Shown here piece by piece: positions 181 through 6,143 of a stretch of DNA of 64,000 nucleotides. The translations under genes were made by a program, and so were the position numbers. Under the pieces are notes generated by a model, which saw nothing but the letters and a program-made list of their open reading frames with translations, searched no databases and had not been told where the DNA came from. Origin of the DNA: a virus; IMG/VR virus record IMGVR_UViG_3300046777_000988, positions 1-64,000 of that record. One strand, 5' to 3'. Position 1 is the first letter of the stretch. Each line of letters starts with the position of its first letter.

Positions 181-254
181 TACCCTCGGCTGGGATCGAA
201 CCAGCAACCTACAGATTAGAAATCTGTCGCTCTGTCCTATTGAGCTACGAGGGC
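181..254 (-). tRNA. tRNA-Arg (anticodon UCU)
   Basis: The minus strand folds as a standard cloverleaf. The acceptor arm GCCCTCG pairs with CGAGGGT (one G-U pair), followed by discriminator A. There is a D-arm beginning GCTC, an anticodon stem ACAGA/TCTGT around loop TTTCTAA, and a T-arm GCTGG/CCAGC around TTCGATC. The loop gives anticodon UCU, reading AGA (Arg). CCA is not encoded, so the tRNA relies on host CCA addition. It lies at the downstream end of the minus-strand block with no second tRNA seen nearby. Confidence 0.93.
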
Positions 255-2911: not shown

Positions 2912-3058
2912 CTACTTCTTCTTCCAGTCAATCGAATCGTAGTTATCGTAATACTTGCTAGTCACAGGGCGTGGCCTATCGCCCTTCCCTGCTCCAGTAG
3001 TCTTGGATTTGATTTGATTGATTCTGGCTTTTCTATCTTCGCTGTTTTTTAGTTTCAT
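2912..3058 (-). CDS. Small conserved phage protein with GKGDRPRPV motif
   Basis: A 48-residue basic protein starting MKLKNSEDRKARINQ, with a central GAGKGDRPRPV segment and an aromatic C-terminal region (SKYYDNYDSIDWKKK). Small proteins with a GKGDxPRPV motif followed by Tyr/Asp/Trp-rich ends are common in phages, usually without known function. It sits between the GT4 gene (26 bases) and the structured RNA region, in the same orientation. The motif and length support a real gene despite its size. Confidence 0.72.
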   Translation of the reverse strand: MKLKNSEDRKARINQIKSKTTGAGKGDRPRPVTSKYYDNYDSIDWKKK

Positions 3059-3084
3059 ATGCGGTAAGTTGTATATTGCTGTTT

Positions 3085-3450
3085 TATACTGAATAAAAGA
3101 TATTCAGCAGGAACGAGTATGCATCCTCTTTTCAGATGTGAGGTTGCCAAACTTGCGGACTACCCAGAGTCCCCTCAGTTCGATGTGGCGGTATTTCCGC
3201 TCATCCGGTAATTATACATCTGCCTGCCGAAAATTATTGATCGGGCTAGACGCTACTCTAGCTTGAGGTCAGAGATTAACGATAGCAACCTGACTGCTCT
3301 GTTTACACTATCTTAACTAGCGTGTCCCCATAGCCCTTGGCTACAGCACAACCCATTGGGAAGTGGCTTCCACGCCGCCGATCAAAATGTTTCAAAGAGC
3401 TAACCCGCCAATTATGTTCATTGCTGTGCTAGAGGAACAGCGGGTATGTT
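3085..3450 (-). ncRNA. Candidate large structured RNA, family not recognised
   Basis: The 450 bases between two minus-strand genes lack a plausible reading frame but are full of perfect inverted repeats: 3089-3095/3101-3107 (7 bp), 3139-3143/3173-3177 enclosing 3157-3161/3168-3172, 3182-3186/3216-3220 enclosing 3188-3191/3197-3200, 3237-3244/3378-3385 (8 bp) enclosing 3245-3250/3257-3262, 3320-3324/3371-3375 and 3331-3335/3339-3343, then 3403-3408/3440-3445. The helices nest without crossing and give three or four domains. Strand is assumed from the flanking genes. Signatures of tmRNA, RNase P RNA, SRP RNA and group I or II introns were looked for and not found. Boundaries are approximate. 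Confidence 0.55.
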
Positions 3451-3510
3451 TATATTTTTAGACTATCACAGTATGGCTGATAATCAAATTGTTTTAAAAT
3501 AAACCGCAAT

Positions 3511-3762
3511 TTATTTTATCAAAAACGCTGGAGTGTTTTCACCGACATATGCACCCTCAACATTATATTGAAAATATTCCTCCGCTTCTTCGTGAGACAT
3601 ATTTTCCATCAAAACTTCAATGCATTGTTCCCTGTCATAAACAGCAAACGGAGTATTGAACTGCCTAGCTATACCTATGAAGGCAGAATCAAATCCGTCA
3701 GCTAGTAGGATTGACTCGTCCTCCCCGATTAGTTCGTCCACTTTTTCTTGTATTGTTTTCAT
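3511..3762 (-). CDS. Conserved small phage protein (paralogue of 53747-54001)
   Basis: An 83-residue acidic protein containing ILLADGFDSAFIGIARQF, VYDREQCIEVLMENM and EEYFQYNVEGAYVGENTP. A second gene at 53747-54001 encodes the same protein with roughly 60 percent identity. The pattern LADG(F/L)xxAFIGI...FNTPxAVYD is widespread in phages; the function is unknown to me. It starts 1 base after the TAGT glycosyltransferase stop and shares its A/T-rich composition, suggesting both arrived together. Confidence 0.8.
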   Translation of the reverse strand: MKTIQEKVDELIGEDESILLADGFDSAFIGIARQFNTPFAVYDREQCIEVLMENMSHEEAEEYFQYNVEGAYVGENTPAFLIK

Positions 3763-3763
3763 G

Positions 3764-4588
3764 TTAAGTTATTTTCTCTAATTTCATTCCAAAATTATTT
3801 ACTCCGAAATAATTATATCCTTCTTTTCTAATCAGTTTGTTTTTTTTAAAAATACGATAATTAACATGGTGATGCCAACGACCGTATTTTTTTGTTACTT
3901 TAACGCAGTCAGGGTGCTGTTCAGCAAGAGATTCAGCAAATGATAGTCGATTTGTTCCATCGTTATAAACAGTATCTGTATTTCCTCCCTTCATCTTCAT
4001 TGTTTGCGTTTTTTGTTGAGTGAAAGCTAAAAATAAAACTGTTGCATATCCCTCTTTAAGAATGCGAATAGACAAGTCTGTATCTTCATTGTATTTACCG
4101 CGCCACCTAAATGGCAGATCATTCTTAATAAGAATCGTGCTGTATATTCGTGTGTTCAATCTAAATGCTGGCCAATTACATTTAGATTTACAAAAAAAAT
4201 CATATTCTGGACCAGCAAGAGCAATGTTTTCATATCTATCTACAAAATCTTCCATTGCATAAAAATAAGCAGGAGAATTACATCTGTGCTGATAGTTATT
4301 ATTCATTCTATTAAACTGCTCAATATTATCGTCTAATATCCAATGCCTTTTATACCCAAGAGATATGCTATGTTCCCAAACAAAGTTTCTTGCTGGTATT
4401 GATCCAAGTCCTAAATCATTAAAAGGTAGTGTTATAATTTTACTTTCATCAACAACTTTTTTATATTGGTCAAATTCATTAGGCTCAATAACAAGATTAA
4501 AGTTGCATCCCATATTTGTTAATGCTTTAGTTGTTAATATACAATCATATCTACCTTTGCTTATTACATAGATTGGATATTTAAACAT
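3764..4588 (-). CDS. TAGT-type glycosyltransferase (TET/JBP-associated, GREB1-like)
   Basis: A 274-residue GT-A-fold enzyme with the hallmarks of the TET/JBP-associated glycosyltransferase family: LVIEPNEFDQY near residue 32, GSIPARNFVWEHSI near 62, the metal-binding HWILDDNI near 82, FVDRYENIALAG, FRLNTRIYSTILI, RWRGKYNEDTDLSIR and TMKMKGGNTD. Family members in phages are linked to sugar addition on hydroxymethylated pyrimidines in DNA. It overlaps the upstream 81-residue gene by 8 bases. No TET/JBP oxygenase, thymidylate-synthase-like hydroxymethylase or other base-modifying enzyme was recognised in this window, so the modified base it would use is unexplained. The gene is more A/T-rich than its neighbours, which suggests acquisition by transfer. 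Confidence 0.85.
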   Translation of the reverse strand: MFKYPIYVISKGRYDCILTTKALTNMGCNFNLVIEPNEFDQYKKVVDESKIITLPFNDLGLGSIPARNFVWEHSISLGYKRHWILDDNIEQFNRMNNNYQHRCNSPAYFYAMEDFVDRYENIALAGPEYDFFCKSKCNWPAFRLNTRIYSTILIKNDLPFRWRGKYNEDTDLSIRILKEGYATVLFLAFTQQKTQTMKMKGGNTDTVYNDGTNRLSFAESLAEQHPDCVKVTKKYGRWHHHVNYRIFKKNKLIRKEGYNYFGVNNFGMKLEKIT

Positions 4589-4826
4589 AATGATGACTAG
4601 ATGCTATTCTATGCGGCATTTCTGGATACCAGATAGAGGGTTGTTTAGGGCCAATTCGTTGGTTTATTAGTTCAGCAAACCGCTTAAAATCATCATCATT
4701 TCTAAAATGAACTATAATTTTTCTATTAGATGTCAAGTCGTCCATCGAAAATTCTGGCATCCCATTCCACTCCAACTGCCAGTCTGTTTGAACTTCAAAT
4801 AAATTTAGTTGATCTTTATTTTTCAT
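4581..4826 (-). CDS. Conserved small phage protein next to TAGT
   Basis: An 81-residue protein with DWQLEWNGMPEFSMDDL, IIVHFRNDDDFKRFAELI and a C-terminal IGPKQPSIWYPEMPHR. The combination of a W-x-GMPEF start, a strand-helix ferredoxin-like segment and a K-x-PSIWYP tail recurs in many phages, often near modification or nucleotide genes. The function is unknown. The 8-base overlap with the TAGT gene makes a shared role in DNA modification a reasonable guess, not more. Confidence 0.75.
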   Translation of the reverse strand: MKNKDQLNLFEVQTDWQLEWNGMPEFSMDDLTSNRKIIVHFRNDDDFKRFAELINQRIGPKQPSIWYPEMPHRIASSHHYV

Positions 4827-4874
4827 TAGAAATATTGTTTGTCGGCATCATTTTTCTTGTATTGTTTTCATGGT

Positions 4875-6143
4875 TTATTGTTCAACAATTCTCTGCTCAA
4901 ATCTCGCTTGATGCTTGATAAACTTCATCGGTATGGAAATCGCGGCGCCATGCCTGTTATGCGTAATCTGCATCAAGTAGTCTTCTGGATTCTTCGATTC
5001 TTCGTCTTGAATGATTCGCGTGAAGGAATCGCAGTCCATGTAGAATGTTCTCGATTCACGGACGGCTCCCTGCTCGTTTAGCTGTGCTAGAAGGACAATG
5101 CAGACATTCAGTTCCTTTGCGACGATCTTTGCAGTTCTGGATACCTCTGCTACCTCACGCTCGCGGTTCTTGGGATCGCTGCCTTCCATTAGCTGGGCAT
5201 AGTCAACCATGATGATCTCAACCTTATGCTCGGCGACCAGCCTCCTGCACCTAGCACGGAATTGGTTCACATTCATGCAAGCCTCGTCAACGATATGGAT
5301 CGGCCTATTCATCGTCTCAGCGATAGCCTTCTGAAGCCTGAAGTGATCCTCTTTGCGTAGCTTGCCGTCCAGCAAGTCTGAGAGGGCGATGTTTGAGATG
5401 CAGGCGATATGCTTGTCCATGATTTCCTCGGCGGACATCTCCATCGAAATGATAGCAATTGGAACATTGCTCTGGATCGTAGGATTCGTCACCATCTGTA
5501 ACGCAGAGGTTGTCTTGCCTGCCTTCGCAGCACCAGCGATGACATGCAGCGTCTTGGGCCTAAAAGCCCGTGTAGCCTTGTCCCACTTGGATATGCCTGA
5601 TGGATGCCCTCTGTTGATCTCTCCGTTCGTTCTAGCGGCATCCTCCCACCGATTCACGCAGGATGTGAGGACATCTTTAGCAACGCGAACATCGGTCTTT
5701 GTGGATACCATTCCGGTGATCTCTTTGCTAGCTGTTTCCTGTAGAGTTTCTGGATCAATCGTCCTGTCGAACGCATCCACAAAAATCTGCTTGCAGGTTA
5801 GAAGAATCCTTCTGCGGATCATCACATCTTCCATAGTCTGGAGATAGACATCCCAGTTGGCGGATGTGGGAACAACCGTGTATATCTCGGTGATACCTTG
5901 CTCTCCACCTGCCTCTTCCAGCAGACCCTTATTCCGCAACTCGCAGGTTAGCGTTAATAGGTCGATGGCTTTCTTGTCATACCACATATCCACAATCGTC
6001 TGCCAAATATGCTTGTTGGCGTCGAAGTGGAAGTGGTCCTTGTTCACACGATCAACTGTTTTAGAGATGATCTTGTTGCTGTTCATTGCAGAGCAAAGGA
6101 ATCCTTGCTCCGCATTTATATCATGCGGTAGTTCACGCTTCAT
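4875..6143 (-). CDS. DnaB-type replicative helicase
   Basis: A 422-residue protein with DnaB architecture. The N-terminal helical domain starts LPHDINAEQGFLCSAM (residues 5-20). A linker is followed by a RecA-type ATPase with Walker A AGAAKAGKTT (about 203-212), a strand ending in IISMEM, and Walker B IIMVDYAQL. LLAQLNEQGAVRESR carries the H3/arginine-finger region, and MQITHNRHG is typical of the C-terminal end. It unwinds DNA ahead of the replisome as a hexamer. No separate DnaC-type loader was recognised; the initiator at 54864 may do the recruiting. The stop codon lies in a TTGTTNAACAA palindrome. Confidence 0.93.
   Translation of the reverse strand: MKRELPHDINAEQGFLCSAMNSNKIISKTVDRVNKDHFHFDANKHIWQTIVDMWYDKKAIDLLTLTCELRNKGLLEEAGGEQGITEIYTVVPTSANWDVYLQTMEDVMIRRRILLTCKQIFVDAFDRTIDPETLQETASKEITGMVSTKTDVRVAKDVLTSCVNRWEDAARTNGEINRGHPSGISKWDKATRAFRPKTLHVIAGAAKAGKTTSALQMVTNPTIQSNVPIAIISMEMSAEEIMDKHIACISNIALSDLLDGKLRKEDHFRLQKAIAETMNRPIHIVDEACMNVNQFRARCRRLVAEHKVEIIMVDYAQLMEGSDPKNREREVAEVSRTAKIVAKELNVCIVLLAQLNEQGAVRESRTFYMDCDSFTRIIQDEESKNPEDYLMQITHNRHGAAISIPMKFIKHQARFEQRIVEQ
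4878..4888. promoter_or_regulatory. TTGTTNAACAA palindrome
   Basis: An exact copy overlapping the helicase stop codon, about 50 bases before the next minus-strand gene. Confidence 0.4.

Follow-up and report, generated by a model that had tools for sequence, protein, structure and literature searches.

An apparent array of recombining RNA modules in a variable slot of a phage genome

The window analyzed here, which is the first 64,000 bases of the 67,868-base IMG/VR virus record IMGVR_UViG_3300046777_000988, contains a non-coding interval (3060-3510) that is probably, with a likelihood of about 0.7, an RNA-cassette array in which three modules, each folding on its own, lie downstream of a promoter-like site, and which occupies a slot whose contents vary among related phages. 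This estimate also covers the putative processing, dimerization, and trans-acting role of the RNAs discussed below. Read on the minus strand, the modules run in the order B (3445-3403), E' (3385-3237), and A (3227-3107), with AT-rich linkers between them. The modules themselves, the folds of module A, including a pseudoknot, and the coding strand are established by comparison with relatives at the level of sequence.

The initial annotation described the interval as lacking an open frame and lying between glycosyltransferase genes, and both observations are correct. The longest open reading frame (ORF) on either strand in the ORF list is at most 42 amino acids, and the glycosyltransferase genes occupy 1774-2886 and 3764-4588. 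The immediate flanks are an 83-residue ORF (3511-3762) and a 48-residue ORF (2912-3058), and a DnaB-like helicase gene follows at 4875-6143; the genes around the interval are all on the minus strand. The 48-residue ORF comes after the array, both in the window and in every full relative of the slot. It is lysine-rich (..GKGDRPRP..YYDNYDSIDWKK) and 73-94% identical beside the array in relatives, and a PHROG search with it gave no match. The glycosyltransferase at 1774-2886 is extremely widespread in environmental viruses, with 368 viral loci, and is ∼70% identical to those of Synechococcus phages S-CAM7 and ACG-2014f. The helicase beside it has only ∼30% identity to any isolated phage, and in one related 68.6-kb record (L005) the helicase frame (4138-5369, plus strand) consists of two matching pieces, reflecting a frameshift or a sequencing error. 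A tRNA-Arg gene (TCT anticodon; 181-254, minus strand) is also present in most related contigs downstream of the glycosyltransferase. This gene lies 2.8 kb from the interval. In relatives, the slot itself also carries tRNA genes.

The first argument for a structured RNA was the presence of at least ten perfect inverted repeats nesting into domains. Such repeats exist, including the largest one quoted (TTGATCGG at 3237-3244 with CCGATCAA at 3378-3385), but their number is no higher than chance. There are 15 repeats of at least 6 bp, while dinucleotide shuffles average 11.6 and 54 of 300 give 15 or more; for repeats of at least 8 bp, the count is one versus 0.76. Nor do the repeats nest into domains of one RNA, as the largest closes module E' alone. 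The folding energy of the interval is mildly unusual (z = -2.26 on the plus strand and -1.91 on the minus strand). Because repeat counts and folding z-scores are weak, the structure claim was judged on relatives, and it is through comparison of their sequences, not through inverted repeats, that structure is demonstrated.

Relatives comprised 80 contigs recovered via the neighboring glycosyltransferase and 21 via the helicase. Among contigs keeping both the helicase and the 48-residue ORF, the corresponding interval has clean common borders and is either an empty slot of 85 nt, as in five contigs (L005, L006, L032, L033, and L042), or 282-656 nt long: 282-289 nt in L037 and L022, ∼425 nt in L007, L036, and L040, and 500-656 nt in L044, L019, L054, L001, and L015. 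Filled slots hold differing combinations of recurring blocks, for example A-B-D (L007), H-G-C-A (L019), and H-C-tRNA-E-A (L015), and real tRNA genes sit within the array in L044 (tRNA-Ala) and L015 (tRNA-Met). A second hotspot, beside a gene labeled terL-like from a reading of its translated C terminus only, displays the orders C-I-A (L084), A-C-I-G (L087), E-C-I-G (L190), and I-C-I (L194). Modules within one array share orientation, except for one internal inverted repeat in module F.

A promoter-like site (TTGATT-16 nt-TAGTCT; 3460-3487, minus strand) lies just 5' of module B, the first module in the window. Its -10 match is weak, and a consensus scan did not rank the site first. Most filled relatives carry a similar box pair (TTGATT/TTTACT/TTTACA-16-TATACT/TACACT/TATATT) in the same place after the upstream stop codon, and no such pair occurs in the five empty slots. 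A related contig also contains a type II hammerhead ribozyme (RF02276, 40.5 bits; L007:7604-7667, plus strand).

Module A (3107-3227, minus strand) was analyzed with covariance models and pair counts. Its two subtypes, represented by alignments of 22 A1 and 16 A2 sequences, share one topology: helices P1 and P2, a P3 hairpin, an H-type pseudoknot (PKa and PKb) around hairpin P5, and a 3' hairpin, P6. In the window, the 3' strand of P1 (CCTGC, 3107-3111) pairs with GCAGG at 3223-3227, a helix with alternative sequences in L158 and L159 (GTTGGG/CCCAAC and CCGGG/CCCGG). The 3' strand of P2 (3133-3138) pairs with 3217-3222; all cells of this helix are paired, and four of its six pairs display double-sided changes. 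The pseudoknot 5' strands (3173-3180) form PKa (3177-3180/3150-3153) and PKb (3173-3176/3140-3143), both 100% paired in the A1 alignment with double-sided changes. For example, AACT/AGTT becomes AGGT/ACCT in nine sequences, and GGGG/CCCC becomes GAGG/CCTC or CTGG/CCAG.

The compensating base changes that the initial annotation would expect of a genuine RNA are abundant in the homologues. In A1, 96.8% of 751 cells are paired, with double-sided changes in 20 pairs and 100 cells, compared with 31.4 cells in shuffles and 8-14 with slid partners; in A2, 92.9% of cells are paired, with double-sided changes in 53 cells. The window copy scores 129.7 bits (E = 1.9e-27) against the A1 model R1, which was built from sequences including this one, and 61.2 bits (E = 1.1e-12) against the A2 model R2, which was built without it. 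Since R1 and R2 each recover the other's members, the two subtypes are homologous. G-U cells are more frequent than A-C cells (21:4 and 43:7), which places the RNA on the minus strand. The alignments also contain mosaics in which an identical P3 hairpin is joined to different pseudoknot variants.

Combined search tables place module A, at about 120-170 nt, in about 85 IMG/VR virus records, sometimes on its own and sometimes combined with other modules, of which there are at least eight. A pattern for its 3' end matched 51 contigs, including a few by chance, and patterns within the body added more. Module A is dispensable and recombines with other RNA modules and with tRNAs. One locus (L083:1085-1139, minus strand; 29 bits) has the 3' end only, namely the 3' strand of P2, P6, and the 3' strand of P1, with no GCAGG start at the usual distance; it may be a remnant or belong to a member whose body is very different.

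The P6 hairpin (3115-3128) has a 3-bp stem and an 8-nt loop, GATGCATA, whose palindrome ATGCAT (3119-3124) is the predicted kissing loop. The 72 R1 model matches contain 13 different 8-nt loops, which have 10 different hexamers at their center. Nine of these 10 hexamers are self-complementary when G-U is allowed, versus a null mean of 1.9, and none of 100,000 shuffles did as well. No other position in module A with comparable self-complementarity was found. The palindromes on record are ATGCAT, GTGCAC, TCGCGA, CTGCAG, CGGCCG, GTATAC, TGCGCA, TTGCAA, AGCGCT, and GCGCGC. As the first module A pattern included the loop, bias was tested with loop-free patterns; every non-standard loop was still palindromic, over only 4 nt in L180 and L158. 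A pattern blind to both loop and body recovered 29 contigs not yet counted. All 12 of the model-positive contigs have palindromic loops, adding TTGCAA and AGCGCT, compared with such a hexamer in only 2 of the 17 model-negative ones. The divergent member L241 (27.8 bits) has a different body and keeps P1, P2, and a TCGCGA loop.

A self-complementary hairpin loop is thus kept through sequence change. The inner loop pairs 3-6 and 4-5 are impossible inside one hairpin, so intermolecular pairing is the simplest reading, and the pattern of loop sequences predicts a kissing-loop homodimer of module A through P6 (for a review of RNA dimerization, see PMC7357161). Duplexfold energies for loop-loop pairing range from -5.9 to -17.5 kcal/mol. 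Counting against a kissing dimer, the P6 stem is only 3 bp and the commonest loop, ATGCAT, pairs weakly, being the second weakest of 11 duplexes at -6.9 kcal/mol.

The other two modules of the window are known from fewer sequences, five for B and three for E'. Module B (3403-3445, minus strand) is a 43-nt hairpin RNA with an ACCCGC..GCGGGT closing stem that is kept in relatives; it also occurs in L001, L007, L036, L118, and others, with 13 of 13 pairs kept and double-sided changes in two. Module E' (3237-3385, minus strand) is a 149-nt branched RNA closed by TTGATCGG/CCGATCAA. In its homologues from L001 and L132, both ends are conserved and the middle is replaced, and with only three sequences there is little covariation.

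Modules C, D, E, F, G, H, I, and J occur elsewhere, and compensating changes are also seen in the pair counts of modules C, B, and E. A pattern for module C matched in 61 contigs, at least two of the matches being chance hits in coding sequence. A palindromic loop was considered in two of these modules: the AAGCTT loop of module C was dropped because one C subtype has no palindrome, and the GTTAAC loop of module I is invariant and hence uninformative on palindrome conservation. In module F of L001 (5310-5502, plus strand), the stretch 5366-5451 matches its own reverse strand as a long hairpin, which is partly missing in L118, L082, and L121. In L194 (5231-5560, plus strand), two different module I copies flank module C, an arrangement that suggests recombination between linkers.

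Covariance searches agree with the earlier statement that no recognized family is present. Rfam 15, including GOLLD, ROOL, HEARO, and introns, has no match in the interval, and no Rfam entry was found for any module checked. The GOLLD model has no match in the interval at the gathering score or at E up to 10, the ROOL model has none in the interval or in relatives, and modules in the relatives' arrays match neither. At E up to 10, Rfam returned rli34, snoU36a, and HIV-1 SL3, each far below its gathering score and attributed to chance. There is no HEARO/OMEGA guide RNA match, and the neighbors are glycosyltransferases, a DnaB-like helicase, and small ORFs rather than IsrB/IscB. The group I intron model gave no match; the interval lies between complete ORFs, and empty slots are also intergenic. 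No tRNA or tmRNA was found in the interval by ARAGORN or Rfam. Blastn of the interval against 50,697 phage records, and a search of isolated phages with the A+C module pair, returned nothing real. A scan of 84,980 GTDB genomes found no module A with exact degenerate patterns, which could miss distant members, and it pointed to no prophage or host. These module RNAs have no description in the literature searched. By these sequence searches, Rfam, GTDB genomes, and isolated phage records contain no match to the RNA family of module A. The proposal of an undescribed structured RNA class therefore holds for a structured non-coding RNA outside any described family, and fails for one large RNA, as there are three separate modules instead.

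That proposal, a single large ornate RNA spanning the interval as a relative or analogue of GOLLD or ROOL, could draw on its length, its phage origin, the kissing loops, and tRNAs near or inside the array in relatives, given that GOLLD linkers can hold tRNAs (PMC12286853). However, each of modules B, E', and A is closed by a helix of its own, and the three are found apart and reordered in other phages, module A stands alone between two genes in some records, and even the permissive Rfam search gave no match. The reshuffling and the separate closing helices contradict the large-RNA description, which is quite improbable. A DNA-level mobile element, such as a MITE-like cassette with inverted repeats for transposition and no RNA role, would account for filled and empty slots and for the second hotspot, and is more improbable still. 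The compensatory changes pass via G-U rather than A-C intermediates, and the pseudoknot and the one-strand orientation within arrays likewise argue for RNA; moreover, no transposase was seen, and the modules differ in sequence and ends.

Two further alternatives concern what the modules and the palindromic loop do. The modules could be cis-acting 3'-UTR elements that stabilize, terminate, or link phage mRNAs, with kissing loops joining two mRNAs and no free RNAs made. Many single-A loci lie 1-9 nt past a stop codon without a promoter of their own, and many copies lie 1-3 nt before the stop codon of a convergent gene. On the other hand, some arrays are promoter-headed and include tRNA genes, module A is the first array module in L007 and L036, and no U-tract follows it in the window, making this explanation rather unlikely. 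The P6 palindrome could also be the site of a symmetric (dimeric) RNA- or DNA-binding protein instead of an RNA-RNA kissing interface, as symmetry alone fits either, and palindromes might also have their effect at the level of DNA. At least ten perfect palindromes with little shared sequence, from TTGCAA to CGGCCG, are unlikely for one protein, and the hairpin around the loop keeps its form throughout, as it does in retroviral dimerization sites; a protein site is accordingly improbable.

Under the favored reading of an RNA-cassette array, transcription would start from the array's own promoter and/or continue from the upstream gene, and processing of the transcript, on the model of phage tRNA clusters, would release each module as a stable RNA. 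In 51 of 64 cases, the closest gene upstream shares the strand of the RNA. Module A may then dimerize, as the covariation suggests: the palindromic P6 loops of two copies would form a 6-bp kissing interaction, and the pseudoknotted body (P2-P3-PK) would be the variable, swappable part. Because module A is dispensable and moves together with tRNA genes, and because its turnover is rapid, its most likely role would be that of an accessory trans-acting RNA directed at the host, such as a decoy or sponge for a host or defense factor. The many single copies directly behind stop codons make a cis role in 3'-UTRs possible as well.

A wider reading is tentative, at somewhat less than even odds: environmental phages may draw on an exchangeable set of at least nine small structured RNAs, moved as cassettes, along with tRNA genes, between a few genomic slots. 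One or more of these would be a self-dimerizing pseudoknotted RNA whose body is swapped while its interface is preserved, and the whole would serve as an accessory arsenal for host takeover or counter-defense. If true, this RNA arsenal would parallel accessory protein genes. Judging by the cassette arrays, phages seem to exchange small structured RNAs as they do tRNA genes, and annotation pipelines seem to miss such modules.

Several known systems resemble the array or module A in part. Phage tRNA clusters likewise consist of small structured RNAs in arrays that gain and lose members quickly, and the modules share slots with tRNA genes, although most modules are not tRNAs and belong to no Rfam family. 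The HIV-1 DIS is a 6-nt palindrome in a hairpin loop in which letters may change and self-complementarity stays. The P6 loop of module A behaves in the same way, but it spans 8 nt above a stem of 3 bp and belongs to a pseudoknotted phage RNA, and the resemblance is one of working principle, not homology. The phi29 pRNA, an essential phage RNA of similar size, assembles through loop-loop pairing between two different loops. Loop-loop assembly is predicted for module A too; however, module A resides in variable slots and is absent from several near-genome-length records. Rfam packaging-RNA models have no match in the interval, the genome is 68 kb, and there are array-free relatives; an essential packaging role was rejected.

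ROOL and GOLLD are known but unexplained large oligomeric phage RNAs, GOLLD occurring in phages and prophages, commonly close to tRNA islands. GOLLD forms a homo-oligomer through kissing loops, and ROOL, a phage and prophage RNA found near tRNA islands, has pseudoknots and quaternary kissing loops, the solved 659-nt ROOL forming a nanocage (PMC12286853). The array resembles GOLLD in being phage-encoded non-coding RNA with tRNAs near or inside it and, here by prediction, kissing loops. Many GOLLD members exceed 800 nt as a single RNA with a conserved 3' half, whereas the ∼450 nt here divide into separable, reorderable, recombining modules of 43-149 nt. Module A shares with ROOL its phage origin, nearby tRNAs, a pseudoknot, and a putative kissing loop, but with about 120-170 nt and one palindromic loop, a dimer is expected. 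Its compact, testable homodimer interface, with at least ten natural palindromes, may make it practical to study why phages produce RNAs that self-assemble. Among known kinds, the oligomeric phage RNAs ROOL and GOLLD come nearest to module A, which differs from them in sequence, size, modularity, and its single palindromic interface.
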